The position numbers and the translations under genes are program-made. Source: Pelagibacteraceae bacterium AG-333-C14 (lineage in GTDB: Bacteria; Pseudomonadota; Alphaproteobacteria; Pelagibacterales; AG-422-B15). Taken from it: 62,695 nucleotides of DNA. The notes under the pieces are model-generated. The model was not told the origin of the DNA and made no database searches. It was given only the letters and a program-made list of their open reading frames with translations. Where the stretch lies: the NCBI GenBank assembly GCA_003282485.1, contig QBZD01000004.1, forward strand, positions 1-62,695. The letters run 5' to 3'. Below, one piece after another: positions 5,774 through 26,525 of the stretch. How positions within the stretch are numbered: position 1 is the stretch's first letter; each line of letters begins with the position of its first letter.

Positions 5774-5776
5774 TAG

Positions 5777-6097: not shown

Positions 6098-6172
6098 AAG
6101 AAATACTCCTTTGTTTTTATATTATATTAAAATCATTTAATTGTTCAAAAAATATCAATAAAGTGACGAAAT

Positions 6173-6535: not shown

Positions 6536-6538
6536 TAA

Positions 6539-9388: not shown

Positions 9389-9536
9389 GGTTATTATTTA
9401 TTTTATTTAATACTTCTTCTCTTTTTTTTAATCTAAGGAAGTTTATGATGAATAGTGTTATTATAGTAATGAAAAAGAATCCATAAGCAGACCAAATAAA
9501 GGGCGCATATCCTCCCATACTTATAAGTTCATTCAT
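9381..9536 (-). CDS. ccmD: Heme exporter accessory protein CcmD (51 aa)
   Basis: Very small membrane protein that helps release holo-CcmE from CcmABC. Reading the minus strand from the ATG at 9536 gives 51 codons and a TGA at 9381. MGGYAPFIWSAYG is the CcmD signature. One membrane helix (FFFITIITLFIINFL) and a charged tail (RLKKREEVLNKINNN) follow. It overlaps ccmC upstream (ATGA) and ccmE downstream, exactly where ccmD belongs. The size, topology and position make this call secure. Confidence 0.93.
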   Translation of the reverse strand: MNELISMGGYAPFIWSAYGFFFITIITLFIINFLRLKKREEVLNKINNNRD

Positions 9537-10240: not shown

Positions 10241-10273
10241 CTTCTATAGATATATATTTATTCATAATTATTT

Positions 10274-10897
10274 CTATTCCACATATAGACGCAGACCATA
10301 TGCTGAGACATAAATTGAAAGAACAAAAGACATCATGGAAAGTGCGAGCAAAATAGGCCACGATTCAAGATTTGTGCCAAATATAAGAAATGGGACAAAT
10401 AGTGGTATTACAATTATTGCTTTTAGAAATATGGTTCTTTTAGCACCAAGAGTTAAAGCGCTGACAAATGTTACTATAAAAACCATCCCAAGAGATCCAA
10501 AAAAAAGGTTCAGAAAAATCAGAAAAAAGTTATCTAAGCTTACATAAAATAAAAAGCTCAATATCGGAAGTATGATGAATAACGGTAAACAATAAACTAA
10601 CCAATGAGTTATATATTTACTAATTATAATAGTTTCTAATGATGGATATCGTTGAATAATAATATCTAAATTTCCATCTTCATAATCAGCATTAAAGATT
10701 CTTTCCATAGTTAGTAAAATTGATAATGATAATCCTATCCAAATTATACCTTTAAACAAAACCTGAAGTTGAACATTATTTGTACCAAACAAAAATGGTA
10801 AAATGATTAACACTAAAACAAAAAAAGAAGAAGTGTAAAAAAAACTTGAGCTTGAGTATAATGCTAAATATAAATCTCTCTTGAGTAATGCTAACAT
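10274..10897 (-). CDS. ccmB: Heme exporter ABC permease CcmB
   Basis: Membrane subunit of the CcmAB ATPase that releases heme-loaded CcmE from CcmC. 207 aa with about six hydrophobic helices. MLALLKRDLYLALYS at the start, DYEDGNLDIIIQRYPSLETIIISK in the middle and GTNLESWPILLALS near the end fit CcmB. It begins 9 nt after ccmA on the same strand. Confidence 0.93.
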   Translation of the reverse strand: MLALLKRDLYLALYSSSSFFYTSSFFVLVLIILPFLFGTNNVQLQVLFKGIIWIGLSLSILLTMERIFNADYEDGNLDIIIQRYPSLETIIISKYITHWLVYCLPLFIILPILSFLFYVSLDNFFLIFLNLFFGSLGMVFIVTFVSALTLGAKRTIFLKAIIVIPLFVPFLIFGTNLESWPILLALSMMSFVLSIYVSAYGLRLYVE

Positions 10898-10906
10898 AAT
10901 GATTAT

Positions 10907-11506
10907 TTAAATTTTAATTTCGTTTGTAAATGTATTTTGTAAATTGATATTCGAAGTAATAATCACAATCCCATTATTAGTGTTAAAATTTTTAATTTTT
11001 TGTATTAATATTTGACTGTTTTCTTCATCTAAAAAAACAAAAGGTTCATCTAAATACCATATCTTACTTTCTGTAAAATTAAGCCTAAGAAGTGATATGC
11101 ACTTTTTTTGCCCATCACTTAAAGAACCAACATCTCTTTCCACAAGGTGTGACATATTGAAATCTTCTAAAATTTTTGAATAAGAAATATTTTTTTGATA
11201 GATAATTTCCCATAGCTTTAAATTATTTTTGACTGATAGATTATCTTTTAGAGAATTCTTTTGACCTACAAAGTTGAACGAGAGTCTATAATTAGTGTCT
11301 TCAAGTACATTTTTATCGTTAAAAAATATTGTTCCATTATAAGATTTTATGAAATTTGATAGTGCCCGGAGGAGAGTGGTTTTACCAGATCCATTGCTGC
11401 CTCTGATTACAAGTGTTTCACCAGATTTAAGCTTTGTATTTAGATCTTTTAGGACTAAGTTTTCACCTCTATAACAAGTTAAGTCCTCAATTTTTAGTTC
11501 ATTCAT
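10907..11506 (-). CDS. ccmA: Heme exporter ABC ATPase CcmA
   Basis: ATPase subunit of the cytochrome c maturation ABC complex. 199 aa, typical for CcmA. Walker A is GSNGSGKTTLLRAL near residue 36. The signature motif is degenerate, LSDGQKKCISLLRL, and Walker B is IWYLDEPFVFLDEEN. It is the first gene of the ccm operon and is divergent from acnA across a short spacer; ccmA-acnA adjacency is common in alphaproteobacteria. Confidence 0.95.
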   Translation of the reverse strand: MNELKIEDLTCYRGENLVLKDLNTKLKSGETLVIRGSNGSGKTTLLRALSNFIKSYNGTIFFNDKNVLEDTNYRLSFNFVGQKNSLKDNLSVKNNLKLWEIIYQKNISYSKILEDFNMSHLVERDVGSLSDGQKKCISLLRLNFTESKIWYLDEPFVFLDEENSQILIQKIKNFNTNNGIVIITSNINLQNTFTNEIKI

Positions 11507-11567
11507 CTTAAACTTTCTATTGATAGCTGTTCAAATTAGTCTTATTAATACATCCAGTAAACCCTCT

Positions 11568-14255
11568 ATGTACGATAGCTTTAAAACAAAAAAAACACTA
11601 AAAATCGGCAAAAAGACCTATACGTATTATAGCCTTAAATATGCTGAGAAAAATGGATTAAAGAATATATCAGCTTTACCCTACTCAATTAAGATACTTC
11701 TTGAGAACCTGATTAGGCATGAAGATGAAAAAACTGTCTTAAAAAGTGATATACTTGAGTTCCAAAAGTGGAAAAAACAAAAAAAAATAGCTAAAGAAAT
11801 TAATTTTAGACCAGCCAGAGTTCTTATGCAGGATTTTACTGGGGTACCCGCGGTGGTAGATCTTGCATCAATGCGATCTGCTATTAAAGATAAAAAAGGT
11901 GACCCAAAAAAAATTAACCCTTTGTCACCTGTAGACCTAGTTATTGATCACTCAGTAATGGTTGATAAATTTGGCTCAGCCTCAGCGCATAAAGCCAATG
12001 TTGATTTGGAATATAAAAGAAATATTGAACGATATGAGTTTCTCAGGTGGGGCCAAAAGTCATTTGATAATTTTCGAGTTGTTCCACCAGGAACAGGAAT
12101 ATGTCATCAAGTAAATTTAGAATATCTTGCTAAAACAATATGGTCATCCAGTGGTTTCATTAATAATAAGAAAGTTGAACTAGCATATCCTGATACAGTA
12201 GTTGGAACCGATAGCCATACTACGATGATCAATGGTCTATCAGTACTGGGTTGGGGAGTTGGAGGTATTGAAGCTGAAGCTGCAATGCTTGGTCAACCAA
12301 TATCAATGGTTGTTCCAGAGGTAATAGGTTTTGAAATTAAAGGTAAAATAAAAGAAGGAATAACAGCGACAGATTTAGTCCTCACGATCACAGAACAGCT
12401 TAGAAAAAAAGGGGTTGTGGGCAAGTTTGTAGAGTTCTTTGGTGAAGGACTTAAAGAATTATCGATACCTGACCGGGCTACAATTTCAAATATGGCTCCT
12501 GAATATGGAGCAACCTGTGGTTTTTTTCCAATTGATGAAGAAACAATTAAATTTTTAAAAGTGAGTGGCAGAGATGAAAAGGGTATTCAACTTGTAAAAA
12601 AATACGCAAAATTTCAAGGACTTTGGGAAGATTATAAAAAGCATGACAGAGTTTATACTGATAAAATGCAATTAGACTTATCACAAATACTGCCAAGTCT
12701 TGCTGGACCTAAGAGACCCCAAGACAAAATAATTCTTTCTAAAGTTTCAGATGAATTTTTGAAATCACTTAAATCTGAATTCTCACAAAAAAATATTTTA
12801 AATCTATCTAAAGTTAAGGGTGAAAATTTTGAAATTGATCACGGTCATGTGGCCATAGCTGCAATAACAAGCTGCACTAATACATCTAACCCTAGCGTAA
12901 TGGTCGGAGCAGGTTTGCTAGCGAAAAAAGCAGCTAAGTTAGGTCTAAAGACTAAACCATGGGTAAAAACTTCACTTGCTCCTGGTTCTAAAATTGTAAC
13001 AGATTATTTAACAAAATCAGGACTGCAAAAATATTTAGATGATTTAGGATTTCACCTAGTTGGGTTTGGGTGCACAACATGTATTGGGAATTCTGGACCT
13101 CTTGATAAAAATATTTCTGATACCATTGGAAAGAATAACCTTATTGTAAGTGGGGTATTATCAGGCAATAGAAACTTTGAAGGAAGAATCAATCCATTTG
13201 TAAAAGCAAATTATCTAGCTTCTCCACCTTTAGTTGTTGCATACGCGCTTGCTGGCTCCATAAAAATAAACTTGGATAAAGATCCAATTGGCATTGGTAG
13301 TAACGGTAAAGAAATATATTTAAAAGATATCTGGCCTACTAATAGAGAAATTCAAAAGATAATAACTAAAACTATTACTTCACAACTCTATAAGCAGAGA
13401 TACAAGAATGTATTTAAGGGCGATAAGAAATGGAACTCCGTAAAAGCACCTCAAGGGTTAACATATAAATGGAATAAAGACTCAACATATGTACAACACC
13501 CTCCTTTTTTTAGAGATCTAAAACTTAATCAAAACAATATAAGCGACATTGAAGATGCTAACATTCTAGGTATTTTTGGAGACTCGGTTACTACAGATCA
13601 TATTAGTCCTGCAGGAGCAATAAAAGATGATGGACCGGCAGGGGACTACCTAAAAAATAAAAAAGTTAAAAGAAATGATTTTAATTCATTTGGAGCCAGA
13701 AGAGGTAACCATCAGGTAATGATGAGGGGAACATTTGCAAATATTAGAATTAAAAATGAAATGTTAAAGAATATTGAAGGCGGCTATACAATTCATCACC
13801 CATCCAATAAACAAATGTCTATTTATGATGCCTCAATTAAATATCAAAAATCTAAGACGCCACTGATTATTATTTCAGGCAAAGATTATGGAATGGGTTC
13901 ATCGAGAGATTGGGCTGCAAAAGGCACTAAATTGCTTGGGGTCAAAGCGGTTATTGCTGAATCTTATGAAAGAATTCACAGATCAAATTTGGTAGGCATG
14001 GGTGTATTGCCATTTAAATTTACTGGATCCGACAACAGAAAAACACTCAAGCTAAAAGGCTCAGAAAAAATAAGTATTATCAATGTTAAAGATAAATTAA
14101 AACCACAAGGAAACTACAGTGCATTAATTAAATACAAGAATGGTGATCTCAAAAAAATTAAAATCAAACTTTTAGTTAATACCGCAACTGAAATAGAATA
14201 TCTCGAAACTGGCGGAATACTTCAGTATGTATTTAAAAATCTTGTAAATTCTTAA
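11568..14255 (+). CDS. acnA: Aconitate hydratase A
   Basis: Citrate-isocitrate isomerase of the TCA cycle with a [4Fe-4S] cluster. From the ATG at 11568 the protein is 895 aa, the usual AcnA length, starting MYDSFKTKKTLKIGKKTYTYYSL. An upstream in-frame TTG at 11520 would add 16 unconserved residues. Cluster ligands are visible in AITSCTNTSNPSVM and GFGCTTCIGNSGPL. Other family blocks are VVGTDSHTTMINGL, DSVTTDHISPAG and SGKDYGMGSSRDWAAKG. It is divergent from ccmA. The intergenic space is about 60 nt, so the two promoters must overlap or lie in the ccmA 5' end. Confidence 0.97.
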   Translation: MYDSFKTKKTLKIGKKTYTYYSLKYAEKNGLKNISALPYSIKILLENLIRHEDEKTVLKSDILEFQKWKKQKKIAKEINFRPARVLMQDFTGVPAVVDLASMRSAIKDKKGDPKKINPLSPVDLVIDHSVMVDKFGSASAHKANVDLEYKRNIERYEFLRWGQKSFDNFRVVPPGTGICHQVNLEYLAKTIWSSSGFINNKKVELAYPDTVVGTDSHTTMINGLSVLGWGVGGIEAEAAMLGQPISMVVPEVIGFEIKGKIKEGITATDLVLTITEQLRKKGVVGKFVEFFGEGLKELSIPDRATISNMAPEYGATCGFFPIDEETIKFLKVSGRDEKGIQLVKKYAKFQGLWEDYKKHDRVYTDKMQLDLSQILPSLAGPKRPQDKIILSKVSDEFLKSLKSEFSQKNILNLSKVKGENFEIDHGHVAIAAITSCTNTSNPSVMVGAGLLAKKAAKLGLKTKPWVKTSLAPGSKIVTDYLTKSGLQKYLDDLGFHLVGFGCTTCIGNSGPLDKNISDTIGKNNLIVSGVLSGNRNFEGRINPFVKANYLASPPLVVAYALAGSIKINLDKDPIGIGSNGKEIYLKDIWPTNREIQKIITKTITSQLYKQRYKNVFKGDKKWNSVKAPQGLTYKWNKDSTYVQHPPFFRDLKLNQNNISDIEDANILGIFGDSVTTDHISPAGAIKDDGPAGDYLKNKKVKRNDFNSFGARRGNHQVMMRGTFANIRIKNEMLKNIEGGYTIHHPSNKQMSIYDASIKYQKSKTPLIIISGKDYGMGSSRDWAAKGTKLLGVKAVIAESYERIHRSNLVGMGVLPFKFTGSDNRKTLKLKGSEKISIINVKDKLKPQGNYSALIKYKNGDLKKIKIKLLVNTATEIEYLETGGILQYVFKNLVNS

Positions 14256-14260
14256 GTAAA

Positions 14261-14902
14261 CTAACTTTTATAATCAGACAAAAATTCCAGGGAACCGTCA
14301 CCACTTCCTGAAATAGTAGTTCTAATGGCTTCAAATACCTTTTCAGAAAACTCCACAAAATCATCAGTATTTATACTGTAGTTTTCTCTGTATAAAGAAA
14401 AGCTAACCTCGACGCATATTTCTCCACAATCGGTATAATAAAAAATATTTGATAAATTACCAAAATCACCTTCATCATTAATTGCGACAGAACACGTCTC
14501 TTCAAAGTTGCCTGAGCCTCTCGTTACAATATTTTTTGTCTTGGTTGGAGCAGCCGAATAGAAACCCGAATCACAGCCAAAAAAAGTTCTTCTGTAATCT
14601 GTTTCTTCTGATTTTGATCCTAAAATACCAAAATTGATATTATCAAAATATGAGGAATTATCATTTTGACCCATTTCTAGAGGTACTAGGTTTGCAAAAA
14701 CATAAAAATTACCTGATGGAACACTTCCAGACTTCTCAAGATCATATATTTTCCAATTTCCTGGCAGCATTGGTAAATCAACTTGGTTATAGGCACTATT
14801 AATTGTTCCTGTATATAAAAGATTTTCATTAAATTCTTCTGCAACAGAATATGAAGTGAATGATAGAAGTAATGCTAAAGTTGATATAATTATGTTTTTC
14901 AT
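14261..14902 (-). CDS. Secreted protein of unknown function
   Basis: 213 aa from the ATG at 14902, which has a GGAAAA ribosome binding site; an ATG 21 nt upstream lacks one. A signal peptide is evident (MKNIIISTLALLLSFTSYSVA, then EEFNENLL). The mature part has short beta-type segments, four cysteines (in GCDS, ETCSV, TDCGEICVE) and many Ser/Asn. I see no recognised domain. It is convergent with acnA and separated from htpG by 80 nt. Probably periplasmic or exported. Confidence 0.65.
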   Translation of the reverse strand: MKNIIISTLALLLSFTSYSVAEEFNENLLYTGTINSAYNQVDLPMLPGNWKIYDLEKSGSVPSGNFYVFANLVPLEMGQNDNSSYFDNINFGILGSKSEETDYRRTFFGCDSGFYSAAPTKTKNIVTRGSGNFEETCSVAINDEGDFGNLSNIFYYTDCGEICVEVSFSLYRENYSINTDDFVEFSEKVFEAIRTTISGSGDGSLEFLSDYKS

Positions 14903-14982
14903 GATTTTTTTCCTATATTTCAAAATATACTAAATTAATTTTATTTAAAATAAGAGTCTTAATTTCATATGTAAATAAAAAT

Positions 14983-16872
14983 TTATTTTACTGATGAATA
15001 AATAATATCAATTAAATCTCTAGAAAACCCAGCAGGGTCAGATGGCTTTTCGCCATCCAAAATTTTTGATTGTTCATACAACATAGTTGCAATTTTACTA
15101 ATTTCCCCAATCTCTTCTTTTTTTGTACACATCTTAGCCATTTTTTTTATGAGCTTATGATCAGAGTTAATTTCCAGTATCTTTAGGGATAATTCCTGAT
15201 TTAATTGATTATGCTGTTGAAGTATCTTTTCCAAATGAGGGTCCATAGCGTTATCATCCCCCACTAAACATACAGCACTGTCAGTCAGCCTCGATGAAAT
15301 CCTTACATCTTTAACTTTATCCTTAAGCTGCTCTTTCAGTAATATAACTAATGGATCGATAGATTTGTTTTCTTTTTTATTATCTTTTTCTTTTTTGCTA
15401 TCAAATGAGTCTAAATCATCAAGTCCTTTTGTAACTGACTTAAAAGATTTTTCTTTATAGAGAGGAGTAGATGATGTCCAAAAGCTATCTACTGGATCAT
15501 CCAGTATTAATACGTTGATGTCCCGAGATTTATAGCCTTCTAAGCTTGGGTTATTCATTATATTTTCATAGCTGTCACCAGTCATGAAGTAAATATCTTT
15601 TTGTTTTTTACCCATACCTTCTAGATACTCATCAAGCGAAATTAATTCTTTTGATTTAGAATTTTTAAAAAGAGCAATCTCTAATAAGGACTCTTTCTTT
15701 TCAAAATCCTCATAAATTCCTTCTTTTAATACAGGGCCAAAATTTAACCAAAATGATTCAAATGATTTTCTATCTTTTAAAAGTTTCTTTTTTAAATCTG
15801 ATAAAGTTCTTTTAACAAGAGAAGATCTTATTTTTGCAACAACAGGATTATTTTGAAGCATCTCCCTGCTGATATTCAATGGAAGGTCCTCGGAATCAAT
15901 TACACCTCTTATAAACCTTAAATATGGCGGGACTAGCTCAGGACAATTATCGGTGATGAAAACTCTTTTTACATACAATTTCAGTCTATTTTCTCTAGCT
16001 GGTTCATATAAATCAAAAGGTTTTGATGATGGTATAAAATTAAGTACTGTGTATTCAATTTTTCCTTCAGCTTTATAGTGCGACGTCATCCAAGGATCAT
16101 CAAACATTTGTCCTACATGATTATAAAATTCTTTATATTGTTCTTCTGTAATTTTATTTTTGGGGCGCGTCCAAATTGCAGAAGCAGAGTTAACAGACTC
16201 AGGCTTTTCATCTTTTTTTTCTGACCCATCCGTTATAAAAATTGGAATACTAATATGATCAGAATACTTCCGTATAATATTTTCAATTCTTGACTTTTCT
16301 AAATACTCTTTTGCTTCTTTTGTTAAGACCAATTCAATAGTCGTTCCTCTATTTGATGGCAAGAGGTCAAGATCTTCACTCTCTTCAATAGTAAAATTAC
16401 TTTCACCATCTGAAACCCAAATCCATAATTTATTTTCTCCAGCTTTTCTTGTTATCACCTTTGTTTGAGAGGCAACCATGAATGCTGAATAAAATCCAAC
16501 TCCAAATTGGCCAATTAATGAAAGATCTTTCGTTTTAGACTCTGATAATTCTTTCAAGAAGTGTGCTGTTCCTGATCTTGCAATTGTTCCGAGGTTTGAT
16601 ATCAGATCTTTTTTATTCATTCCAACACCATTGTCGGAAATTGAAATCACACTTGATTTCTTATTTATATTAATACTTACTGAGAAATTAGGATCATCCT
16701 TAAGTAATTTGTCTTTTGTATTAGATAAATACCTGAGCTTATCACAGGCATCAGATGCATTGGAAACGAGCTCGCGAATAAAGACTTCTTTTTCGGAATA
16801 AACAGAGTTGATCATCAATTTGAGCAATTGACTAACTTCTGTTTGGAATTCTAATTTTTCAGATTTTGCCAT
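14983..16872 (-). CDS. htpG: Molecular chaperone HtpG (Hsp90)
   Basis: Bacterial Hsp90, an ATP-dependent dimeric chaperone. 629 aa, full length. The GHKL ATPase domain motifs are SNASDACDKLRY near 40, SDNGVGM near 79, GTIARSGT near 95 and GQFGVGFYSAF near 118. The middle domain contains LPLNISREMLQ. A charged linker rich in Lys/Asp (around 470-500) precedes the C-terminal dimerisation domain. It is monocistronic by position. Confidence 0.97.
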   Translation of the reverse strand: MAKSEKLEFQTEVSQLLKLMINSVYSEKEVFIRELVSNASDACDKLRYLSNTKDKLLKDDPNFSVSININKKSSVISISDNGVGMNKKDLISNLGTIARSGTAHFLKELSESKTKDLSLIGQFGVGFYSAFMVASQTKVITRKAGENKLWIWVSDGESNFTIEESEDLDLLPSNRGTTIELVLTKEAKEYLEKSRIENIIRKYSDHISIPIFITDGSEKKDEKPESVNSASAIWTRPKNKITEEQYKEFYNHVGQMFDDPWMTSHYKAEGKIEYTVLNFIPSSKPFDLYEPARENRLKLYVKRVFITDNCPELVPPYLRFIRGVIDSEDLPLNISREMLQNNPVVAKIRSSLVKRTLSDLKKKLLKDRKSFESFWLNFGPVLKEGIYEDFEKKESLLEIALFKNSKSKELISLDEYLEGMGKKQKDIYFMTGDSYENIMNNPSLEGYKSRDINVLILDDPVDSFWTSSTPLYKEKSFKSVTKGLDDLDSFDSKKEKDNKKENKSIDPLVILLKEQLKDKVKDVRISSRLTDSAVCLVGDDNAMDPHLEKILQQHNQLNQELSLKILEINSDHKLIKKMAKMCTKKEEIGEISKIATMLYEQSKILDGEKPSDPAGFSRDLIDIIYSSVK

Positions 16873-18212: not shown

Positions 18213-19223
18213 ATGGAAAAAGTTTTAGTCACAGGAGCTTCGGGATACATAGCAGAACACTGCATTATTGAACTTCTTGAAAATGGATACGCGGTCAAAG
18301 GATCCCTCCGCAACATGAACAGAGAGCAAGAAGTTCGTACCGCAGTAAAAACTGCAGTAGATGATAGTAATCTGGGGTTTTGTGAACTTGATTTATTAAA
18401 AGATGATGGTTGGAGTGACGCAATGGTTGATTGCGATTTCGTCATGCATCTAGCTTCACCTTTTGTGCTCGAAAATCCGAAAGATGAAAATGAACTTATT
18501 AAACCTGCAAAAGAAGGTACCTTAAGAACTCTTGCTGCAGCAAAGAAAGCGGGAATAAAAAGAGTTGTTGTCACATCATCAACTGCAGCAGTTAACTCTC
18601 ATATGAAAACTGGCACTAGTGATCATAATACATGGACAGATGTGAACAGTAAGTACGTCACTCCTTATCAAAAAAGTAAAACTATTGCAGAAAAAGCTGC
18701 ATGGAATTTCTTTAATGATCAAAGTGATGATAATAAAATGGAAATGACTGTCGTTAATCCAGGCGGCGTGATGGGGCCACAACTTGGAAAAGACCTTGAT
18801 GGTGCATCAACACAAATTATCTCGCAACTTATTTCTGGTAAATTTCCAATGATACCAGCGTTATCTTTTCCCTTTGTTGATGTTCGTGATGTGGCTAAAC
18901 TACATCTAAAAGCAATGATAACACCTGAGGCGAATGGAAAAAGATTTATTGCTGCACACACTAAACCTACATGGATGTATGAGATTGCTGAAATATTATA
19001 TAATGCAGGGTACAATAAAATAAAATTGAAAAAAGCTCCATCATTCATGTTAAAGTTAATTGGTTTGATTGATAATCAAACAAAGAGCTTGGTTCCAATG
19101 TTAGATAAATTTGTTCCAACTGATAATTCTCAAACTGTTGAAATTTTAAAGTGGAAACCAATGCCTCTTGAACAAGCTTTTATAGAGCATGCAAAATCTA
19201 TTACTGAAATAAAAAATAGCTAA
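18213..19223 (+). CDS. NAD-dependent epimerase/aldehyde reductase, paralog 1
   Basis: Extended short-chain dehydrogenase of the dihydroflavonol-4-reductase/methylglyoxal-reductase-like group, likely NADPH-dependent. 336 aa. The Rossmann start is VLVTGASGYIAEHCI (GxxGxxA variant). SSTAAVNS is the region of the catalytic Ser, and YQKSKTIAEKAAW supplies the Tyr-x-x-x-Lys pair near 154-158. NPGGVMGP follows. An AGGAG ribosome binding site precedes the ATG. It is the first gene of a four-gene operon and a tandem paralog of the next gene, also 336 aa. Substrate unknown. Confidence 0.85.
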   Translation: MEKVLVTGASGYIAEHCIIELLENGYAVKGSLRNMNREQEVRTAVKTAVDDSNLGFCELDLLKDDGWSDAMVDCDFVMHLASPFVLENPKDENELIKPAKEGTLRTLAAAKKAGIKRVVVTSSTAAVNSHMKTGTSDHNTWTDVNSKYVTPYQKSKTIAEKAAWNFFNDQSDDNKMEMTVVNPGGVMGPQLGKDLDGASTQIISQLISGKFPMIPALSFPFVDVRDVAKLHLKAMITPEANGKRFIAAHTKPTWMYEIAEILYNAGYNKIKLKKAPSFMLKLIGLIDNQTKSLVPMLDKFVPTDNSQTVEILKWKPMPLEQAFIEHAKSITEIKNS

Positions 19224-19225
19224 CA

Positions 19226-20236
19226 ATGGAAAAAGTATTAGTTACAGGAACAACGGGTTATATCGGCCTTCATTGTGTAGCACAGCTACTTGAGGCTGGT
19301 TATCATGTAAGAGGCTCAATGAGGTCTAAAGAGAGAGAACCAGAAGTTAGAAACGCCCTAGCTAAAGTTGTGAACGCAGAAAATAGATTTGAAACATGTG
19401 AACTTGACTTGATGAGTGATGCCGGATGGGATGATGCTGCAACTGGATGTGATTATGTCTTGCATATAGCCTCACCACTCACTGAAAAAGCACCTGATCA
19501 TGAAGATGACATCATAATTCCTGCAAAAGAAGGGCTACTTCGTGCTTTAAAGAGTGCAGTTAAAAATAAGGTTAAAAGATTTGTTATGACCTCATCTTTT
19601 TCAGCGATAGGCTATGGACACGTCAAAGAAGTGTTTGATGAGAGTCATTGGACAGACCCAAGCCAAAAAATTGGTGCATATAATAAGAGCAAAGCTATAG
19701 CTGAGAGAGCTATGTGGGATTATCTATCAGGACTTAATGAAGAAGATAAAATTGAAGCTGCCGCAATTAATCCAACACTTGTTGTAGGGCCTTCATTATC
19801 AGATGATATGGGATCATCTAATATGTTTATTCAAAGAATGCTTGATGGTTCATATTCAATTGTTCCACAAGTTCATCTAGGGTTTGTATCTGTAAAAGAT
19901 ACAGCAAAAGCACATATTGCTGCCATGACACACCCTGATGCGAATGGTAAAAGATTTATTTTATCGGAAAGAAACATGTGGTTGACTGAAATGAATGAAA
20001 TTCTAAAAAGAAATGGATATATAAAAGCACCAACCAAAAAAGCACCAAACTTTCTAATCAAACTTATGGGAATTTTTAATAAGGAAGCTGCAGTAATTGC
20101 AGGATTTGTTGGCAAAACAAAATATACAAATTCTGAAAATGCTAAAAATATACTAAAGTTTAATTTTGAAAATGTTGAAAATGCTGTTGTAGAAACAGCT
20201 AAACAAATGGAAGATTTAGGATTAATAGTAAAATAA
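19226..20236 (+). CDS. NAD-dependent epimerase/aldehyde reductase, paralog 2
   Basis: 336 aa, the same family as its upstream neighbour, from which it is separated by 2 nt. It has VLVTGTTGYIGLHCV with a canonical GxxGxxG, SSFSAIGYG for the catalytic Ser, YNKSKAIAERAMW for Tyr-x-x-x-Lys, and NPTLVVGPSLS. The two proteins share the frame MEKVLVTG, REPEVR-like, CELDL, ASP and DANGKRFI. They look like an old tandem duplication with diverged substrate pockets. The stop TAA overlaps the ATG of the aldo/keto reductase. Confidence 0.85.
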   Translation: MEKVLVTGTTGYIGLHCVAQLLEAGYHVRGSMRSKEREPEVRNALAKVVNAENRFETCELDLMSDAGWDDAATGCDYVLHIASPLTEKAPDHEDDIIIPAKEGLLRALKSAVKNKVKRFVMTSSFSAIGYGHVKEVFDESHWTDPSQKIGAYNKSKAIAERAMWDYLSGLNEEDKIEAAAINPTLVVGPSLSDDMGSSNMFIQRMLDGSYSIVPQVHLGFVSVKDTAKAHIAAMTHPDANGKRFILSERNMWLTEMNEILKRNGYIKAPTKKAPNFLIKLMGIFNKEAAVIAGFVGKTKYTNSENAKNILKFNFENVENAVVETAKQMEDLGLIVK

Positions 20237-21291
20237 TGGAATTCAGAAAGTTAGGACGATCAGATATAGATGTAAGCTCTATTTGTCTCGGTACGATGAC
20301 TTGGGGCGAACAAAATACCGAAGCTGATGCACATGACCAGTTAGATTATTCCCTCGCTCATGAAGTCAACTTTATTGATACTGCAGAAATTTATGCTGTG
20401 CCAACAAAAGCAAAGACACAAGGACTGACAGAGGAGTATATTGGCTCATGGCTTAAGGCACGAGGTAATAGAGATAAAGTTATTCTTGCTACAAAGGTAG
20501 CAGGACGCTCGGGAATGTCATGGCTAAGAGAGAATGAAGAGATTCCAAGGCTGAATAAAGAACAAATTTTTTATGCTGTTGAGGGCAGTCTTAAAAGACT
20601 GCAAACAGATTATATTGATCTTTATCAAGTACACTGGCCTGATCGACCGTTTGGCGCTTTTTCAGGACGTCTTGAATACAAGCACATGGATACCTCTGAT
20701 TCTATTCCACTTGAAGAAACGCTCGAAGCGCTAGGTGAACTGGTGAAGCAGGGAAAGATTAGGGAAATTGGTCTTTCCAATGAAACTCCGTGGGGTACGA
20801 TGAAGTATCTTCAGCATGCTGAAGCCAAAGATCTCCCTCGTGTGGCTTCAATTCAAAACGCATACAATTTAGTGAACAGAGGTTTCGAAATTGGTCTTTC
20901 TGAAGTTGCCGCTCATGAACAAGTGGGGTTGCTTGCTTATTCACCATTAGCTCAAGGAACATTATCTGGAAAATATTTGAACGGGCAGATGCCGCAAGGG
21001 TCTAGAATGGCTTTGTTTGGCGACGGCCCTCTAATGTATAGATACAAAAATGAAAAAACGATGAAGGCGATTGAAATGTATGTTGAAATTGCAAAAAAAT
21101 ATGAGCTCGATCCCTCTCAATTAGCCATCAGATTTTGTGATATACAACCTTTTGTCACGTCTACAATAATTGGAGCAACGACAATGGATCAGTTAAAAGC
21201 CTGCATAGACAGTGTTCATCTTGATTTAAATAAAGAGATTATGAATGAAATTAGAAATGTACATAAGGAAATACCAAACCCATCACCATGA
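20236..21291 (+). CDS. Aldo/keto reductase (Tas-like)
   Basis: NADPH-dependent aldo/keto reductase of the Tas/YajO type, 351 aa. FRKLGRSDIDVSSICLGTMTWG and NFIDTAEIYAVP supply Asp and Tyr of the catalytic tetrad, VILATKVAG the Lys, and YIDLYQVHWPDRP the His. GLSNETPWG and LLAYSPLAQGTLSGKYL are further family blocks. It starts inside the previous stop codon and its own end overlaps phhB by 4 nt, so the four genes form one transcript. It may act with the upstream reductases on related carbonyls; this is inference. Confidence 0.9.
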   Translation: MEFRKLGRSDIDVSSICLGTMTWGEQNTEADAHDQLDYSLAHEVNFIDTAEIYAVPTKAKTQGLTEEYIGSWLKARGNRDKVILATKVAGRSGMSWLRENEEIPRLNKEQIFYAVEGSLKRLQTDYIDLYQVHWPDRPFGAFSGRLEYKHMDTSDSIPLEETLEALGELVKQGKIREIGLSNETPWGTMKYLQHAEAKDLPRVASIQNAYNLVNRGFEIGLSEVAAHEQVGLLAYSPLAQGTLSGKYLNGQMPQGSRMALFGDGPLMYRYKNEKTMKAIEMYVEIAKKYELDPSQLAIRFCDIQPFVTSTIIGATTMDQLKACIDSVHLDLNKEIMNEIRNVHKEIPNPSP

Positions 21292-21578
21292 TTAAAAAAC
21301 TTACAAAAACAGAAGTTACTCAAAAACTGAAACGCTTATCAGGCTGGAAAATGGTCAAAAGCCGTAACGCGATTACTAAAACATTTAAGTTCAAAAATTT
21401 TATGCAAGCCTTTGGTTGGATGACATCTATGGCCATATATGCTGAGAAGAAAGATCATCATCCTGAATGGTTTAATGTCTACAATACCGTAGTAGTAACA
21501 CTATCCACACATGACTCAGGCGGTGTAACAATACTTGACTTAGATATGGCCAGAGAAATGAACCAAAAAAGTAAATAG
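21288..21578 (+). CDS. phhB: Pterin-4a-carbinolamine dehydratase
   Basis: Dehydrates 4a-hydroxytetrahydropterin to quinonoid dihydropterin, recycling the cofactor of aromatic amino acid hydroxylases. 96 aa, normal size. LSGWKMVKSRNAITKTFKFKNF, then AEKKDHHPEWFNVYNTVVVTLSTHDSGGVT with the family's His-His-Pro-Glu-Trp core. No phenylalanine hydroxylase is in the window, so the substrate source is unclear; some bacteria use it with other pterins. Its stop lies one base before the left edge of the repeat/tRNA-fragment array. Confidence 0.92.
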   Translation: MIKKLTKTEVTQKLKRLSGWKMVKSRNAITKTFKFKNFMQAFGWMTSMAIYAEKKDHHPEWFNVYNTVVVTLSTHDSGGVTILDLDMAREMNQKSK

Positions 21579-21579
21579 T

Positions 21580-21660
21580 CACCATATCCGCGATTAATAG
21601 AAAATGTGTCAGTATAGTGTCAGTGAAATTTGTCAATGTGCAATATTTAAAGTGCAATAT
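21580..21660. repeat. Repeat element A: left edge of cassette array, tRNA-Leu nt 1-12
   Basis: Starts one base after the phhB stop. 21580-21606 is identical over 27 nt to 23335-23361. On the minus strand its first part (21580-21591) is nt 1-12 of a tRNA-Leu gene (GCGGATATGGTG) preceded by the same upstream bases. At 21606-21625 come two 11-nt-spaced direct repeats, GTGTCAGTATA and GTGTCAGTG, also found in elements C, D and E. A further pair GTGCAATAT lies at 21638-21646 and 21652-21660. It precedes the membrane-protein gene at 21692. Confidence 0.8.
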
Positions 21661-21691
21661 ATAAGCTGAAAAGATACAATGATTTTATCTT

Positions 21692-22330
21692 ATGAAAGGC
21701 ATTTTCGAATTTGCTGCAGTTCCTTTAATTCTTACTTTGGTAGGATTCATTGCTTATCTATTTGGAGGCTTTACACAACCAGCCGGCATTACTAATCACT
21801 CTGTTTTTGGTTTATTCTTATCTGGCAATCTTTTTGATTTGTATGAAAAACCAAGCACGATTATTATTTTATATGTGCTTTATAGTTATACATATTTTTT
21901 GATAAGAAATGACTTTTTATTTGAACGATATTCATCAGCTTATCTTTATAATTTTGGATATTACTTTATTTCATCAGCTGTATATGTGCTTGGTATTGTT
22001 TCAATAATACTTTACTTTTTGTCATTAGGTCCAATACTTAAGAATGATATTAATTCTCTTACAGCGTTACTTTTATTTATTATAACTCCATTAATTATAA
22101 CTTTATTTTTAATAAATTTATTCCCAATAAAACATAAAAAAAATAGAACCATCATCCTATTTGCACCTTTTGTTTTCGCAATAATTATTATATTCAGTAA
22201 TATAATCTTTGTTGTCATAACAGACTACGAAAAAATAAATTTGGTCAATTTAATTTTAGTAAGTCTATTTTCAGTTTATATTATTAAATCATCATACGAT
22301 TATTTAACTGACAAAAAAAATAAGTCTTAA
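21692..22330 (+). CDS. Multipass membrane protein of unknown function (cassette gene 1)
   Basis: 212 aa, strongly hydrophobic, with about six predicted membrane helices (for example residues 5-28, 57-70, 92-112, 121-145, 153-176, 186-200) and a lysine-rich C terminus (DYLTDKKNKS). No recognised family. It is even more AT-rich than the neighbouring housekeeping genes. It lies between repeat elements A and D and is the only plus-strand gene in the array. Nothing in the sequence points to a specific function. Confidence 0.6.
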   Translation: MKGIFEFAAVPLILTLVGFIAYLFGGFTQPAGITNHSVFGLFLSGNLFDLYEKPSTIIILYVLYSYTYFLIRNDFLFERYSSAYLYNFGYYFISSAVYVLGIVSIILYFLSLGPILKNDINSLTALLLFIITPLIITLFLINLFPIKHKKNRTIILFAPFVFAIIIIFSNIIFVVITDYEKINLVNLILVSLFSVYIIKSSYDYLTDKKNKS

Positions 22331-22331
22331 G

Positions 22332-22372
22332 TGATTATTATTTAATCATGAAGTGTCAGTATATTATCCGAA
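22332..22372. repeat. Repeat element D: between cassette genes 1 and 2
   Basis: The segment TGATTATTATTTAATCATG followed by AAGTGTCAGTATATTATCC closely resembles the start of element C at 25365-25395 (TGATTATTTAATCACG, then AAGTGTCAGTATAGTGTCAG). It has the same orientation. Only one GTGTCAGTATA unit remains here. It begins one base after the stop of the membrane-protein gene and ends just before the stop of the convergent MORN gene. Confidence 0.7.
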
Positions 22373-22381
22373 AGATTTAGA

Positions 22382-23182
22382 TCAGAAAACAGGCTCATCA
22401 TCCTTCCATTCACCACTATGAAGTGTTGAGCCATTTGAATCGATTAGTGATCCCTGTCCATTAAATAAGCCATCCTTAAATCCACCAATGTATTTTTCAC
22501 CATCGGTATAGGTGTAAGTTCCTTGGCCATGCATTTTACTATCTTTCCATTCTCCAACGTATTTTGAACCATCTGTCCAAGTCTCAGTACCATTTCCATG
22601 CTTACTACCACTTTTCCATGCACCAATGTATTTTCCACCTTCAGGATAATTAAGGATGCCTTGTCCATGATACTTATCATCTTTCCATTCTCCCATGTAT
22701 TTTGAACCATCTGTCCAATCCTCAATACCATGTCCGTCACGTTTGCCGTCCCGGTATTCACCTATGTATTTTGTACCATCAGCAAAAAAGTAAGTTCCTT
22801 GTCCATCATATTTACCATTTATAAATTCACCAGCATATTTTTCACCATCGGCATAGGTGTAAGTTCCTTGGCCATGCATTGAGTCATCTTTAAGTCCACC
22901 AACATATTTTTCACCATCGGCATAGGTGTAAGTTCCTTGGCCATGTTTATAATTGTTTTTCCATTCACCAACATATTTATCACCATTGGCATAATAGTAG
23001 ACACCTAGTCCATGAAGTAAATTATTTTTATTTTCTCCAACGTATTTGTCACCAGCGGGTTTACCTGTAGTCCATACGTATGTTCCATACCCATTGAAAC
23101 AGTCACCACTAATGCATTCATCTGAAAAAACTGAAGACGAAAATACAAAGACCAACATGAGAGGTAGAAGTAATCTTTTCAT
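22382..23182 (-). CDS. Secreted MORN-repeat protein (cassette gene 2)
   Basis: 266 aa from the ATG at 23182, which gives a clean signal peptide (MKRLLLPLMLVFVFSSSVFS); an upstream in-frame ATG at 23221 would bury it. The rest is about ten MORN repeats of 23 residues with the pattern G-x-KYVGEWKDxKxHGQGTYTYADG. MORN repeats form elongated beta sheets that bind lipids or proteins; a periplasmic or surface location is likely. Several repeats are nearly identical in DNA, showing recent internal duplication. It lies between repeat elements D and B and its promoter region is the homologous part of element B. Confidence 0.85.
   Translation of the reverse strand: MKRLLLPLMLVFVFSSSVFSDECISGDCFNGYGTYVWTTGKPAGDKYVGENKNNLLHGLGVYYYANGDKYVGEWKNNYKHGQGTYTYADGEKYVGGLKDDSMHGQGTYTYADGEKYAGEFINGKYDGQGTYFFADGTKYIGEYRDGKRDGHGIEDWTDGSKYMGEWKDDKYHGQGILNYPEGGKYIGAWKSGSKHGNGTETWTDGSKYVGEWKDSKMHGQGTYTYTDGEKYIGGFKDGLFNGQGSLIDSNGSTLHSGEWKDDEPVF
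22496..22945. repeat. Near-identical 69-bp units inside the MORN gene
   Basis: A stretch beginning TTCACCATCGGCATAGGTGT recurs at 22841 and 22910 (69 nt apart, exactly 23 codons) and, with one change, at 22496. Identity extends about 36 nt, so these units were copied recently at the DNA level rather than only conserved as protein. They are coding repeats. Confidence 0.8.
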
Positions 23183-23189
23183 ACTTAAA

Positions 23190-23361
23190 TCATACACCAT
23201 AAATTGTGATAATTTAATCATGAAAAGTCAGTAAACAGAGTAAATATTATTAATAGTAATTATAACTGATTGGAATAAATTAATTTGTGCTGTAGACCCT
23301 CACTGGTACCTAAAACCAGCGTGTCTACCAATTCCACCATATCCGCGATTAATAGAAAATG
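23190..23361. repeat. Repeat element B: central full junction with tRNA-Leu nt 1-50
   Basis: The left part (about 23190-23327) aligns with element C (25349-25498) over roughly 140 bp: both run from a CATAC-CCA start region through TTTAATCA-GA, AGTCAGTA-ACAG, TATAACT-ATTG and TTTGTG to the shared CCCTCACTGGTACCTAAAAC block. The right part (23335-23361) is the 27-nt sequence of element A. B therefore looks like a C-type end joined to an A-type end, as expected between two tandem units. It separates cassette genes 2 and 3. Confidence 0.8.
23297..23346 (-). pseudogene. Truncated tRNA-Leu(UAG), nt 1-50
   Basis: The minus strand reads GCGGATATGGTGGAATTGGT then AGACACGC, an anticodon arm CTGGT-TTTAGGT-ACCAG with anticodon UAG, then GTGAGGG, the start of a Leu-type variable arm. 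After that the sequence diverges; there is no T arm, no 3' acceptor strand (TATCCGC) and no CCA. It cannot fold as a complete tRNA. It is therefore a tRNA-Leu fragment embedded in repeat element B, most likely an attachment-site remnant. Confidence 0.85.
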
Positions 23362-23407
23362 CAAAATAGACTATTTCTCAACAGTTTACATCAACCATTA
23401 TTACTCT

Positions 23408-24295
23408 CTAAATACCTGTAATTGCAACAAAAGCAGCTCCTATTGCTGCACCCTTTATTAGCTCTTCATGTTTTTTTGTAAGTTTTCTTATCTCTGGTAA
23501 TATGTCTTCAGTTTTATATTTTTTTATATTTTTTCTAATTGCAATTGCTACAGCAAACCCGAAGATAACTCCAATTAGCGGAGATGCAAAAAGATTAGCA
23601 GTGATCAAGAATGATCCTGTCGAAGCGAGACCAGTGACAGTCCCCTTATTCATTTCTTTTTTTGCTTTCTTTTGAGTATAAGTCGTTCCAAGAGATATTA
23701 CTGAAACTATTAAAAGTAATGGATTTGCGGCTATCAATGAGGATAGAACCATACTAGATGCGATTTCAGATTTAAATTCAAGTTTTTCCTTATCACTCCA
23801 ATTATATATAAGTGCTAATGCTCCGACAGTTGCCATAAATACCTCCGCCATATTTACGGACATGATGTCCATAATCCAACTCTTTTTAATACCAAATGTA
23901 GAATTTATATAATTAGCAATATCGTCAAACTTTTGTTTATCACTTATGTTAAACAAAGGTATGCCATTAATTGTCTGCAAATCTTTTAAAAGTGAAATTA
24001 CATAATTTTTTACTTCATCTGACAAAGTATCTTCTTTAAATGTCTCTCTTACTTTTTCCAACATTTTAAGTGGTGAATGACTTTCATCAAAATGGCGATG
24101 ATAACCGCCTCCAATACCTGTTTCATTGAAAATTTTATCTATGTGTTTGTCATATTCTGATGGGGTATCATCTATTAATCCATCAAATTGTTTTTCCAAT
24201 TTCCTTGAAGCTGGTAAAGCAAAAATTGCAGAAACTCCAATTGATAATTTTTTATACAAATTGGCATAATGAGTTTTAATTTTCCCAAATATCAT
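23408..24295 (-). CDS. Membrane protein of unknown function (cassette gene 3)
   Basis: 295 aa from the ATG at 24295. An in-frame TTG at 24346 would add 17 residues but has no clear ribosome binding site; neither start has a strong one. The N-terminal half is soluble-looking and charged, with FDGLIDDTPSEYDKHIDK and GGGYHRHFDESHSPLKMLEKV. The C-terminal half has about four hydrophobic stretches (MAEVFMATVGALALIYNW, SSLIAANPLLLIVSVISLG, FLITANLFASPLIGVIFGF, GAAIGAAFVAITGI). I do not recognise a family. It sits between repeat elements B and E. Confidence 0.55.
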   Translation of the reverse strand: MIFGKIKTHYANLYKKLSIGVSAIFALPASRKLEKQFDGLIDDTPSEYDKHIDKIFNETGIGGGYHRHFDESHSPLKMLEKVRETFKEDTLSDEVKNYVISLLKDLQTINGIPLFNISDKQKFDDIANYINSTFGIKKSWIMDIMSVNMAEVFMATVGALALIYNWSDKEKLEFKSEIASSMVLSSLIAANPLLLIVSVISLGTTYTQKKAKKEMNKGTVTGLASTGSFLITANLFASPLIGVIFGFAVAIAIRKNIKKYKTEDILPEIRKLTKKHEELIKGAAIGAAFVAITGI

Positions 24296-24345
24296 TTTAC
24301 AATCATAACTTTTACTTGGACAAATATAAGCATAAATTAATTTCA

Positions 24346-24400
24346 AAGTGTCAATATAGTGTCAATGAAAATGTCACTGATCAACTCAATGTGAAATATG
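24346..24400. repeat. Repeat element E: between cassette genes 3 and 4
   Basis: GTGTCAATATAGTGTCAATG followed by AAAATGTC aligns with element A at 21606 (GTGTCAGTATAGTGTCAGTG then AAATTTGTC), with two G-to-A changes. The following CAATGTGAAATATG resembles CAATGTGCAATAT of element A. It occupies the spacer between cassette genes 3 and 4. It has no tRNA fragment. Confidence 0.7.
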
Positions 24401-24427
24401 TATTCATTGTTAGGACTGTTTCTATTA

Positions 24428-25342
24428 TTAAAATTCATAGTGAACCACAGCACTATGTTCTTCTTTCAGGTCATCATATAAAGTTTCATATAATTTTCGC
24501 ATCCATTTTTCTTCTAAATCAGAAAGCTCTGGGTCTTCTTGGAGATTCCAGAAACTATCATATTTCCAATTAGGATTATTAAGCCTTTCTCTTATAATGT
24601 CTTCATTTCTACTGTGATTATCAATCCATTCTCGGTATTTTTCCATTTTTTCAGAGTCATTTAGGTCACGTAATAAATATTTTTCCGAACAGAAATTTGC
24701 TAACGGTGTAAAGAATTCTTCTAACATGGCGTCAGGAAGGCCAACAAATCCAAGTTCATTACATTTTTCAAAGATTATTTTATGATAATTTAAGTCTTTG
24801 TAATAAGTAAATTCATCTGACTCAAAACAAATTTCACTGACAAAATTTCTACAATTTATAAGAAATTTATCTATTATGATATCTCGATTTTCACATTTTA
24901 ATATATTTGGATTTATATTGAGTACTCTCGGTCCTTCAGTTGTATCTAAGTAGTTTCTAGGAAAATATTGAACTAATTCATTAGGGTCATCTAAGTCCTT
25001 ATGTTCATCTTTCAAATCATATTCAGTTTTTCTAAATAATTTTAAAATTGGCAATTTTAACTCTAAATGAACTAATTTGTTTACTTTTCCAATTTGGTCA
25101 GCAAATTCTCCTTTATCTAAACTTTCTGCAAAATAATCTTCGATAGTGACGGTGTAAATTAATGAAACATCTAAATTATAACTTATTTTTTGTTTAATTG
25201 TTTCATTGCAGAAAATATTGAGACAATGCTCAGCGTCTTTCTCAAAAATAACATTTTCTCTTTTGTTTAAGCTTCCACAGTCAAATATATACTTTGTCAG
25301 TTCGCCTCTATTTATTTTTTCTTTTAGAATTATCTTATACAT
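24428..25342 (-). CDS. Soluble protein of unknown function (cassette gene 4)
   Basis: 304 aa with an ATG start at 25342. Acidic, Lys/Glu/Asp-rich, without signal peptide or membrane helices, so probably cytoplasmic. It has a Trp/Asp-rich C terminus (NPNWKYDSFWNLQEDPELSDLEEKWMRKL). Cysteines in DCGSLN and NIFCNE are not arranged as a known metal site. I recognise no domain. Its upstream region is the homologous part of repeat element C, matching the arrangement of the MORN gene with element B. Confidence 0.55.
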   Translation of the reverse strand: MYKIILKEKINRGELTKYIFDCGSLNKRENVIFEKDAEHCLNIFCNETIKQKISYNLDVSLIYTVTIEDYFAESLDKGEFADQIGKVNKLVHLELKLPILKLFRKTEYDLKDEHKDLDDPNELVQYFPRNYLDTTEGPRVLNINPNILKCENRDIIIDKFLINCRNFVSEICFESDEFTYYKDLNYHKIIFEKCNELGFVGLPDAMLEEFFTPLANFCSEKYLLRDLNDSEKMEKYREWIDNHSRNEDIIRERLNNPNWKYDSFWNLQEDPELSDLEEKWMRKLYETLYDDLKEEHSAVVHYEF

Positions 25343-25348
25343 ACAAAA

Positions 25349-25498
25349 TCATACCCCACAAATCATGATTATTTAATCACGAAGTGTCAGTATAGTGTCA
25401 GTAGACAGTCCGATCCTTATTAAAAAATGACTATAACTAATTGAAATGACTCTATTTGTGATGTGAGCCCTCACTGGTACCTAAAACCAGCGTGTCTA
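25349..25498. repeat. Repeat element C: right edge of cassette array, tRNA-Leu nt 20-50
   Basis: Homologous to the left part of element B over about 140 bp. It holds the best pair of direct repeats, GTGTCAGTATA and GTGTCAG, at about 25384-25401. It ends with 25468-25498, identical over 31 nt to 23297-23327: on the minus strand this is tRNA-Leu nt 20-50 (D-arm end, UAG anticodon arm, GTGAGGG). Unlike B, the tRNA match stops at nt 20 and the 27-nt A-type end is missing. The quinone oxidoreductase gene ends 11 nt away. Confidence 0.8.
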
Positions 25499-25508
25499 AG
25501 GTAGACAC
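25492..25508. other. Inverted repeat at the array/chromosome junction
   Basis: GTGTCTAAGGTAGACAC is a perfect 7-bp dyad with a 3-nt spacer. Its left arm is tRNA-Leu antisense. Its right arm with the preceding GG reads GGTAGACAC, which is tRNA-Leu nt 18-26 in the opposite orientation. It lies directly after the stop of the minus-strand oxidoreductase gene and could fold at its mRNA end, but there is no T run. It may mark a rearranged integration junction. Confidence 0.5.
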
Positions 25509-26525
25509 CTAAGATTTATAAAAAGAGGTAGTTAGTGATATTTTTCCAGTAGCCTTACGGGCTAAAATTGTTTCAAGAGCTTCTTGTCCTCTTTCAAGTG
25601 GGAGAACTTCTGTAACAGGTGCTTTTAATTTACCTTCTTCATACCAGCTCGTCAGTTGGTTCATATTGTCCAAATGATTTTGTGGCTCTAAAGCTGTAAA
25701 TTGGCCCCAAAATACGCCAACCGCTGAACATCCTTTAATCAGATAAAGATTCATGGGTATTTTAGGTATATGACCCGCTGCCCAACCAATAACTAAAAAA
25801 CGTCCATTCCAAGCAATACTTCTTAATGCGGGCTCGGTAAAATCAGCTCCAACGGGATCATAGATAACGTCTGGTCCTTTGCCACCTGTTGCTTTAGAGA
25901 TTTCACTTCTAAACTGTTTAACTTGATCACGATCTGTTAAATCATAGCCACCATAATTAATCACTTCATCTGCGCCGTACTGTTTGCATACTTCTAATTT
26001 CTCATCTGATGATGCAGCTGCAACAACTTTAGCGCCAAGAGCTTTACCAATTTCAACCGCTGATATACCAACACCGCCAGCTGCTCCTAAAACCAATAAA
26101 GTTTCACCTGCTTTGAGTTGGCCACGATTTTTTAATGCGTATTGTGATGTGCCGTAAGTCAATGTAAAACAAGAGGCTGTGGTAAAGTCCATACTGCTTG
26201 GTTTTTTATAAATTTGTCCTGCACTGACAACTACTTGTTCTCTGAAACCTCCAAAACCTGTCATCGCTACAACCTCATCGCCAACTTTCCAATCTATGAT
26301 GCTTTCACCAACTGCGCTAATGGTTCCTGATATTTCACCTCCTGGTGAAAAAGGAAGTGGAGGTTTTACTTGATACTTATCTTGTATGATTAAGGTATCA
26401 GGAAAATTAACTCCAGCAGCATGCACATCAACCAATATTTGACTCTTCTTTAGTTCAGGAACTTCAACATCCTCATAAACCAACGAACTTGGAGGCCCAA
26501 ATTCTTTACAAACAATTGCTTTCAT
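25509..26525 (-). CDS. NADPH:quinone oxidoreductase (zinc-independent MDR)
   Basis: Medium-chain dehydrogenase/reductase of the quinone oxidoreductase type, 338 aa. MKAIVCKEFGPPSSLVYEDVEVPELKKSQ is the typical start. AAGVNFPDTLIIQDKYQVKPPLPFSPGGEISG is the substrate side, and LVLGAAGGVGISAVEIGKALGAKVVAAASS the NADPH fold. The structural zinc cysteines of alcohol dehydrogenases are missing. It is divergent from the IalB-like gene with a 30-nt spacer. Its 3' end forms the right chromosomal flank of the cassette array. Confidence 0.9.
   Translation of the reverse strand: MKAIVCKEFGPPSSLVYEDVEVPELKKSQILVDVHAAGVNFPDTLIIQDKYQVKPPLPFSPGGEISGTISAVGESIIDWKVGDEVVAMTGFGGFREQVVVSAGQIYKKPSSMDFTTASCFTLTYGTSQYALKNRGQLKAGETLLVLGAAGGVGISAVEIGKALGAKVVAAASSDEKLEVCKQYGADEVINYGGYDLTDRDQVKQFRSEISKATGGKGPDVIYDPVGADFTEPALRSIAWNGRFLVIGWAAGHIPKIPMNLYLIKGCSAVGVFWGQFTALEPQNHLDNMNQLTSWYEEGKLKAPVTEVLPLERGQEALETILARKATGKISLTTSFYKS

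Follow-up and report, generated by a model that had tools for sequence, protein, structure and literature searches.

A probable eroded array of small non-autonomous cassettes between phhB and a quinone oxidoreductase gene in a SAR11 genome

We analysed a 62.7-kb stretch of DNA from Pelagibacteraceae bacterium AG-333-C14 (the window; contig C4 of genome G000, a 1.19-Mb assembly in 42 contigs that is 84.5% complete), in which four accessory genes separated by related noncoding repeats stand between phhB and a quinone oxidoreductase gene (QOR). Two sets of genomes served for comparison, one of the genus (n = 43) and one of the order (n = 397); individual genomes are given G-numbers. On the left, phhB (pterin-4a-carbinolamine dehydratase; 21288–21578, plus strand) matches Pfam PF01329 at 5e-32, and on the right QOR (25509–26525, minus strand) is found in 41 of the 43 genus genomes. 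Between these flanks lie the cargo genes of four units, which we number as cassettes 1 to 4: a 212-aa membrane protein without a Pfam, PHROGs or PADLOC family (21692–22330, plus strand), a secreted MORN-repeat protein of 279 aa (22382–23221, minus strand; PF02493, 2.6e-59), a protein of at most 312 aa with hydrophobic stretches (23408–24346, minus strand) and a 304-aa protein (24428–25342, minus strand). The order proposed in an initial annotation of the DNA—boundary A, membrane gene, boundary D, MORN gene, boundary B, third gene, boundary E, fourth gene, boundary C—was confirmed together with its coordinates, and searches of the interval bore out its claim that no recombinase gene is present there. 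The cargo of cassettes 1, 3 and 4 has no confident family in Pfam, PHROGs or PADLOC. PADLOC recognised no defence family in the window cargo, and the sole PHROGs match was to a MORN family of unassigned function, with no phage integrase or structural genes. Single-sequence structure prediction was uninformative for the proteins of cassettes 3 and 4 (mean predicted local distance difference test score, pLDDT, of ~36), and no relatives of these two proteins were found in viral contigs.

The repeats at the boundaries exceed what shuffled sequence would yield: the 62.7-kb window contains exactly four copies of the motif GTGTCARTATA, at A (21606), D (22353), E (24348) and C (25384), against a mean of 0.08 copies, and never four, in shuffled sequence. 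Identical blocks are shared between A and C (19 nt, GTGTCAGTATAGTGTCAGT), A and B (27 nt) and B and C (31 nt), and pieces of tRNA-Leu(UAG) were seen, as first described, at three boundaries (A, B and C). The intact tRNA-Leu(UAG) gene of G000 lies on another contig (C10:1650–1734, by ARAGORN) and adjoins the trigger-factor gene tig. Boundary B holds the clearest copy, with a tRNA-Leu(UAG) 5′ half and ~35 bp of upstream promoter region (23298–23392, minus strand) whose 95 nt are 100% identical to C10:1686–1780. To its left lies the right end of cassette 2 (23210–23289), with the decayed repeat AAGTCAGTAAACAG and a conserved right motif at 23261–23289; this end is 90% identical to a displaced copy at C10:3121–3308.

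At the outer left junction, boundary A carries 27 nt of the tRNA-Leu(UAG) 5′ end and upstream region (21580–21606, antisense on the plus strand), identical to 23335–23361 and to the real tRNA locus, followed by the left repeat pair GTGTCAGTATAGTGTCAGT (21606–21624, plus strand), from which the conserved left motif that usually precedes it has been deleted. Boundary C comprises an AT palindrome and the right repeat pair GTGTCAGTATAGTGTCAGT (25360–25402, the pair at 25384–25402), the conserved right motif TATAACTAATTGAAATGACTCTATTTGTG (25432–25460, plus strand; 0–6 mismatches in the units of relatives), and the tRNA-Leu core CCCTCACTGGTACCTAAAACCAGCGTGTCTA with the outer right junction AGGTAGACACC (25468–25508), a junction type that recurs in G055, G012, G015, G040, G001 and G057. 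The remaining two boundaries are fused. D (22337–22371) joins the right-end AT palindrome of cassette 1 and GTGTCAGTATA to TTATCCG, the left-repeat type of cassette 2, which is also present at C10. E (24345–24370, plus strand) consists of the repeat pair GTGTCAATATAGTGTCAAT, without tRNA sequence, and then DNA resembling the first left end of G055. The interval is, judging from its sequence, a worn array whose outer ends A and C carry the same repeat pair, A having lost its left motif, while D and E would have arisen by deletions between neighbouring repeats. Three points of the initial annotation are to be corrected: the repeat of B is decayed, D and E are incomplete sites, fused or eroded, and the insertion site in the window is no tRNA gene.

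The main site, the tRNA-Leu(UAG) gene beside tig, emerged when the genus was searched with the window region. The cassette or satellite character proposed at the outset is partly supported, with the correction that the main array site lies here and that the phhB–QOR interval of the window represents a worn secondary site. The distance that separates the start of the tRNA (5′) from the adjacent dehydrogenase gene is 86–87 bp in 10 genomes (empty) and 1.3–12.8 kb in 11 (occupied), and the relatives hold between zero and two complete cassettes at this gene. Insertion was exact, because subtracting the distance between the first and last core from the occupied length restores the empty-site length (85, 85, 86 and 85 bp in G048, G007, G039 and G000, respectively). 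The occupied loci show that an insertion supplies a new tRNA 5′ half and promoter, so that the gene stays whole, with the old half displaced to the far end. The unit of G000 at its own tRNA-Leu gene (C10) carries nfeD- and stomatin-like genes, named by eye, and is decayed. A second class of elements occupies the same tRNA-Leu gene at loci L041 (G005; 6768–16466), L042 (G012; ~6000–13626) and L307 (G059; 2204–5115). Its far end shares only the sequence from GTGTCTACCAATTCCACC... onward, preceded by AAAACTCG or AAGTCC and without the right motif, and in G005 and G012 the element carries a type I restriction-modification system.

Intact cassettes were available in G007 (two), G005, G012, G039, G048, G055 (several) and G042 (two). 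Their organisation is far more regular than the boundaries of the window had suggested, with repeats at 11-bp spacing that match within a cassette and differ between cassettes. At the left end, the tRNA core is followed by its upstream region and the left motif GCTAAGGTTTTGGTTTAAG; after a further ~18 bp come a 7-mer, present twice with a spacing of 11 bp, and the cargo. At the right end, the cargo is followed by the same 7-mer pair, ~47 bp, the right motif TATAACTAATTGAAATGACTCTATTTGTG and the tRNA core (CCTCACTGGTACC...). Both offsets—~18 bp to the left motif and ~47 bp to the right motif—are fixed in intact ends. Six 7-mer types were encountered across units (TGTCAGT, TGTCAAT, TGGTACT, TGTCCTC, TGGTCCT and TGTCACC), and the pairs at the two ends agree fully or almost fully in nine of the 11 units scored outside the window (partner permutation, p = 2e-6). 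The left motif is present in only 13 of the 397 genomes of the order, all from the family to which G000 belongs. Cassettes usually hold 1–5 genes, and complete units are small (1250 bp in G048, 1187 and 1882 bp in G007, 1215 bp in G042 and ~1.2 kb on contig C26 of G055). Cargo reads towards the tRNA in 17 of 18 units counted (p = 1.4e-4), the sole exception being the membrane gene of the window. By eye, each of the two conserved end motifs matches the consensus of integration host factor (IHF), WATCAANNNNTTR, with one mismatch, and G000 encodes two genes of the HU/IHF family.

This regularity bears on the possibility that the units are remnants of larger tRNA-integrated islands or prophages that lost their own integrase by deletion. 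The window array is visibly eroded, with A lacking its left motif and D and E fused, and G005 and G012 have a larger restriction-modification element at this tRNA. However, complete small units with intact ends and 1–5 whole genes recur (G048, G007, G042 and G055:C26), an integrase relic was found in none of the units examined, and random decay is not expected to leave both ends intact around a single whole gene in one orientation; we consider such an origin unlikely. An artefact of single-cell genome assembly or amplification is hardly credible. One instance of this kind was seen, an inverted duplicate of the array in G007:C12 (L040, 1–3100 versus 10700–14000) that is probably an amplification chimera, but many genomes hold cassettes, in a single orientation, and these loci have conserved flanks on either side and precise empty counterparts.

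The phhB–QOR interval varies among relatives in the manner of a second site. A gap of 11–20 bp marks it as empty in 22 relatives, whereas it is filled in ~10 (G055, G040, G049, G051, G001, G012, G019, G057, G015 and a few others), with gaps of 0.9–8.8 kb and genes differing from those of the window. Comparison across relatives, as initially recommended, hence revealed both empty sites and other cargo bounded by the same pieces. As the relatives do not all carry the same four genes at this position, the cassette idea holds up. Most filled gaps keep tRNA-Leu pieces on the QOR side (GTGTCTAC, a similar 10 nt, then TAAGATTTAT), and some on the phhB side too; G055:C26 contains one complete cassette of ~1.2 kb with both ends intact. 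The common junction suggests that the secondary site may have been founded once and later refilled. Related cargo is evidently present at both sites: the MORN protein of the window has a homologue in the tRNA-Leu cassette of G039 (42–43% identity by BLAST), and cargo at tRNA-Leu in G042 is 56–64% identical to cargo at phhB–QOR in G055, with the same repeat type, and 72–73% identical to that of G049 and G051. Cargo of the relatives, identified by eye, includes trypsin-like proteases, proteins with SHOCT-like tails, a subtilisin-like protein of 1094 aa and a MORN pair. In a group of relatives that includes G001 (L090, 1400–7400) and G015 (L056, 1100–7100), the phhB–QOR gap is filled by a repetitive protein of 1971 aa (97% identity between two of its copies), and the gap has an equal length of ~5.98 kb in G001, G012, G019 and G057. 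Elsewhere in the window, two neighbouring, similar dehydrogenase-like genes of 336 aa (18213–20236) apparently represent a tandem duplication.

Exchange could also proceed only by host homologous recombination between tRNA half-copies and flanking DNA, with no site-specific recombinase operating now. With its ~79 bp, the tRNA core could sustain some homologous exchange, and mosaics in the phhB flank indicate that homologous recombination moves filled sites: the last 40–80 bp of phhB in G055 and G000 (the final ~50 bp in the window) resemble the genus's other clade, at 88–92% against 71% mean identity, while the remaining phhB flank is native. The mosaic suggests that the filled allele has probably also passed between clades by recombination in the flanks. 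As the sole mode of exchange, however, this process seems improbable, for the second site, when empty, lacks homology to the core on that scale, the founding insertion there needs another route, and homologous exchange gives no role to the fixed spacing of repeats and motifs.

The explanation that we favour, and consider likely, is that the four units of the window form an array, now eroded, of small non-autonomous integrative cassettes moved by a tyrosine recombinase in trans. A core, an inner conserved motif and paired outer repeats would together make up the layout of a tyrosine-recombinase attachment site with putative arm sites. The repeat pairs would be the arm-binding sites of the recombinase, and the flanking motifs putative sites for an IHF-like accessory protein, while the core for the exchange would lie in the tRNA 5′ region. 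Judging from the phhB–QOR junctions and from the larger elements in G005 and G012, the likelier crossover is GTGTCTACCAATTCCACCATATCC, and not the anticodon loop, although sequence drift bars a firm call. A recombinase acting in trans would be needed because none travels with the cassettes, and the enzyme may be supplied by a phage or another element integrating at this tRNA gene, and cassettes that differ in their repeats would answer to different recombinases. More tentatively, and with somewhat less than even confidence, we propose that the matched 11-bp repeat pairs form an address code in which each type is read by another phage- or plasmid-borne recombinase, visiting elements thereby carrying single host genes between the tRNA-Leu sites of different cells.

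Candidates for such an enzyme were sought in the genomes and in viral contigs. No recombinase or integrase relic was found in the cassettes examined. The only tyrosine recombinases of G000, a search for which had been recommended, are XerC- and XerD-like (named by size and family) and lie on other contigs; these two might conceivably be the enzyme, but no dif-like core was seen, and no integron integrase (IntI) was met beside the array in this 84.5% complete genome. Across the 43 genomes, the Pfam integrase search returned XerC/XerD types, the genes of two unrelated islands and a contig-end fragment. The first of these islands (G007:C14; L143, ~3300–9000), a small one beside a tRNA-Gly gene, encodes two tyrosine recombinases as well as a protein in which an HUH-like motif, WHCHILF, was noted, and is perhaps an integrated rolling-circle plasmid or phage; its recombinases were set aside as helpers, the island adjoining tRNA-Gly and showing no matching repeats. 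The second (G042:C1; L303, ~7200–15700) resembles a satellite and encodes an integrase of 415 aa and a primase-like protein of 809 aa; its genome also holds two intact cassettes. Without a tRNA or a matching end motif, this island too was rejected. Patterns for the right end, the left end and the repeats gave no matches in viral contigs, or chance matches within genes. The 23-nt tRNA core occurs in 87 viral stretches, of which 80 were screened with mostly Xer-type seeds and none scored, a screen that possibly missed phage integrases.

Phages do use this target. For the pelagiphages HTVC011P and HTVC025P and for uv-Fonsiphage-EPL, attB is tRNA-Leu(TAG) flanked by the trigger-factor gene, and the integrases of HTVC011P, HTVC025P and the Fonsibacter prophage are only 32–37% alike (PMC6811365). 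In HTVC011P, the intergenic region beside the integrase has TGTTGCA repeats on either side of a short anticodon-loop match (presumed attP), which supports the view that arm-like repeats may operate at this target. HTVC011P itself was dismissed as the helper, having the same target gene but other repeats and the opposite arm orientation. HTVC011P, HTVC041P and HTVC025P (L270, L275 and L276) have a complete tRNA-Leu(TAG) gene next to the integrase, another route to rebuilding the target.

Several points weigh against a tyrosine recombinase acting in trans on these ends. Searches of the genomes and viral contigs turned up no recombinase accompanied by the cassette repeats, and no excision or transfer was seen. 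The two ends are unmatched in two of the 11 units scored—the decayed G000:C10 and G059, from another genus of the family. The crossover point is placed only loosely, owing to drift at the junctions, the likeness to IHF sites is weak (one mismatch each, with ~0.1 expected by chance per end), and the putative arm repeats of the cassettes are direct while those of HTVC011P are inverted. The helper question is testable: next to the expected recombinase there should be an attachment site whose repeats are of one of these types. SAR11 ranks among the bacterial groups of highest abundance, and here is a host without an integron or prophage integrase, equipped only with housekeeping recombinases, in which accessory genes nonetheless turn over. 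A cassette that can be defined and recognised by its ends provides a searchable signature for the gain and loss of single genes in SAR11.

Among described systems, the cassettes come close to cis-mobilizable elements (CIMEs) and tandem accretion, which they resemble in having attachment-site flanks, no recombination genes, and tandem arrays at a tRNA gene. CIMEs are mobilised by the recombinase of another element, the route that we infer for the SAR11 cassettes. They are usually deletion derivatives of a known family of integrative and conjugative elements (ICEs) and share its sites, whereas the cassettes carry 1–5 genes, display several repeat types on one tRNA and have no known parent element. 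Tycheposons, which Hackl et al. (2023) are said to have described as partly satellites and partly cargo carriers, likewise bring flexible cargo to tRNA genes in Prochlorococcus and other streamlined ocean bacteria, as the cassettes do at tRNA-Leu(UAG). The cassettes could be a cargo-only class of such satellites with the recombinase-bearing copies unsampled, given the common ocean habitat, tRNA targeting and flexible cargo. Yet tycheposons have their own hallmark tyrosine recombinase, which appears in no unit, nor in G000 beyond XerC/XerD, and they are much larger, at a quoted 4–200 kb (PMC10872708), than one-gene cassettes; we regard this derivation as quite improbable.

Another precedent is that of the additive flexible islands, small gene cassettes at tRNA genes that leave part-tRNA direct repeats, described in Actinomarinales (PMC7771536) and Methylophilaceae (PMC10872708). 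The cassettes share with these islands the part-tRNA direct repeats and the differing cargo among close relatives; set against the descriptions consulted, which give no end anatomy, the SAR11 units differ in their paired cassette-specific repeats, two end motifs, uniform orientation and second, non-tRNA site. An end anatomy like theirs was not found described in the literature searched, which excluded most subscription journals. With the attP of HTVC011P and HTVC025P they share the tRNA-Leu(TAG) target beside the trigger-factor gene and, in HTVC011P, short repeats starting with TG that flank the core. Unlike the cassettes, HTVC011P, HTVC025P and HTVC041P carry an integrase and a whole tRNA-Leu gene, with a presumed core at the anticodon loop and other, inverted repeats, and PHROGs detected neither the integrase nor the structural genes of a pelagiphage prophage in the window cargo.

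Integrons invite comparison with regard to organisation. In both systems, short cassettes of a single orientation and without a recombinase of their own form arrays and are exchanged at a common site. However, the SAR11 array has no integron integrase, its first position is a tRNA gene and not attI, and its boundaries are tRNA-Leu 5′ halves with direct repeats, showing no attC-type inverted-repeat pattern—in keeping with the initial remark that the sites do not look like attC. The cassettes are recombinase-less, tRNA-targeted elements that are organised like integron cassettes and yet are not integrons. In the layout of their ends, finally, they appear to follow lambda-type attP, with arm-type repeats that lie in pairs, at a fixed distance, to either side of a core.

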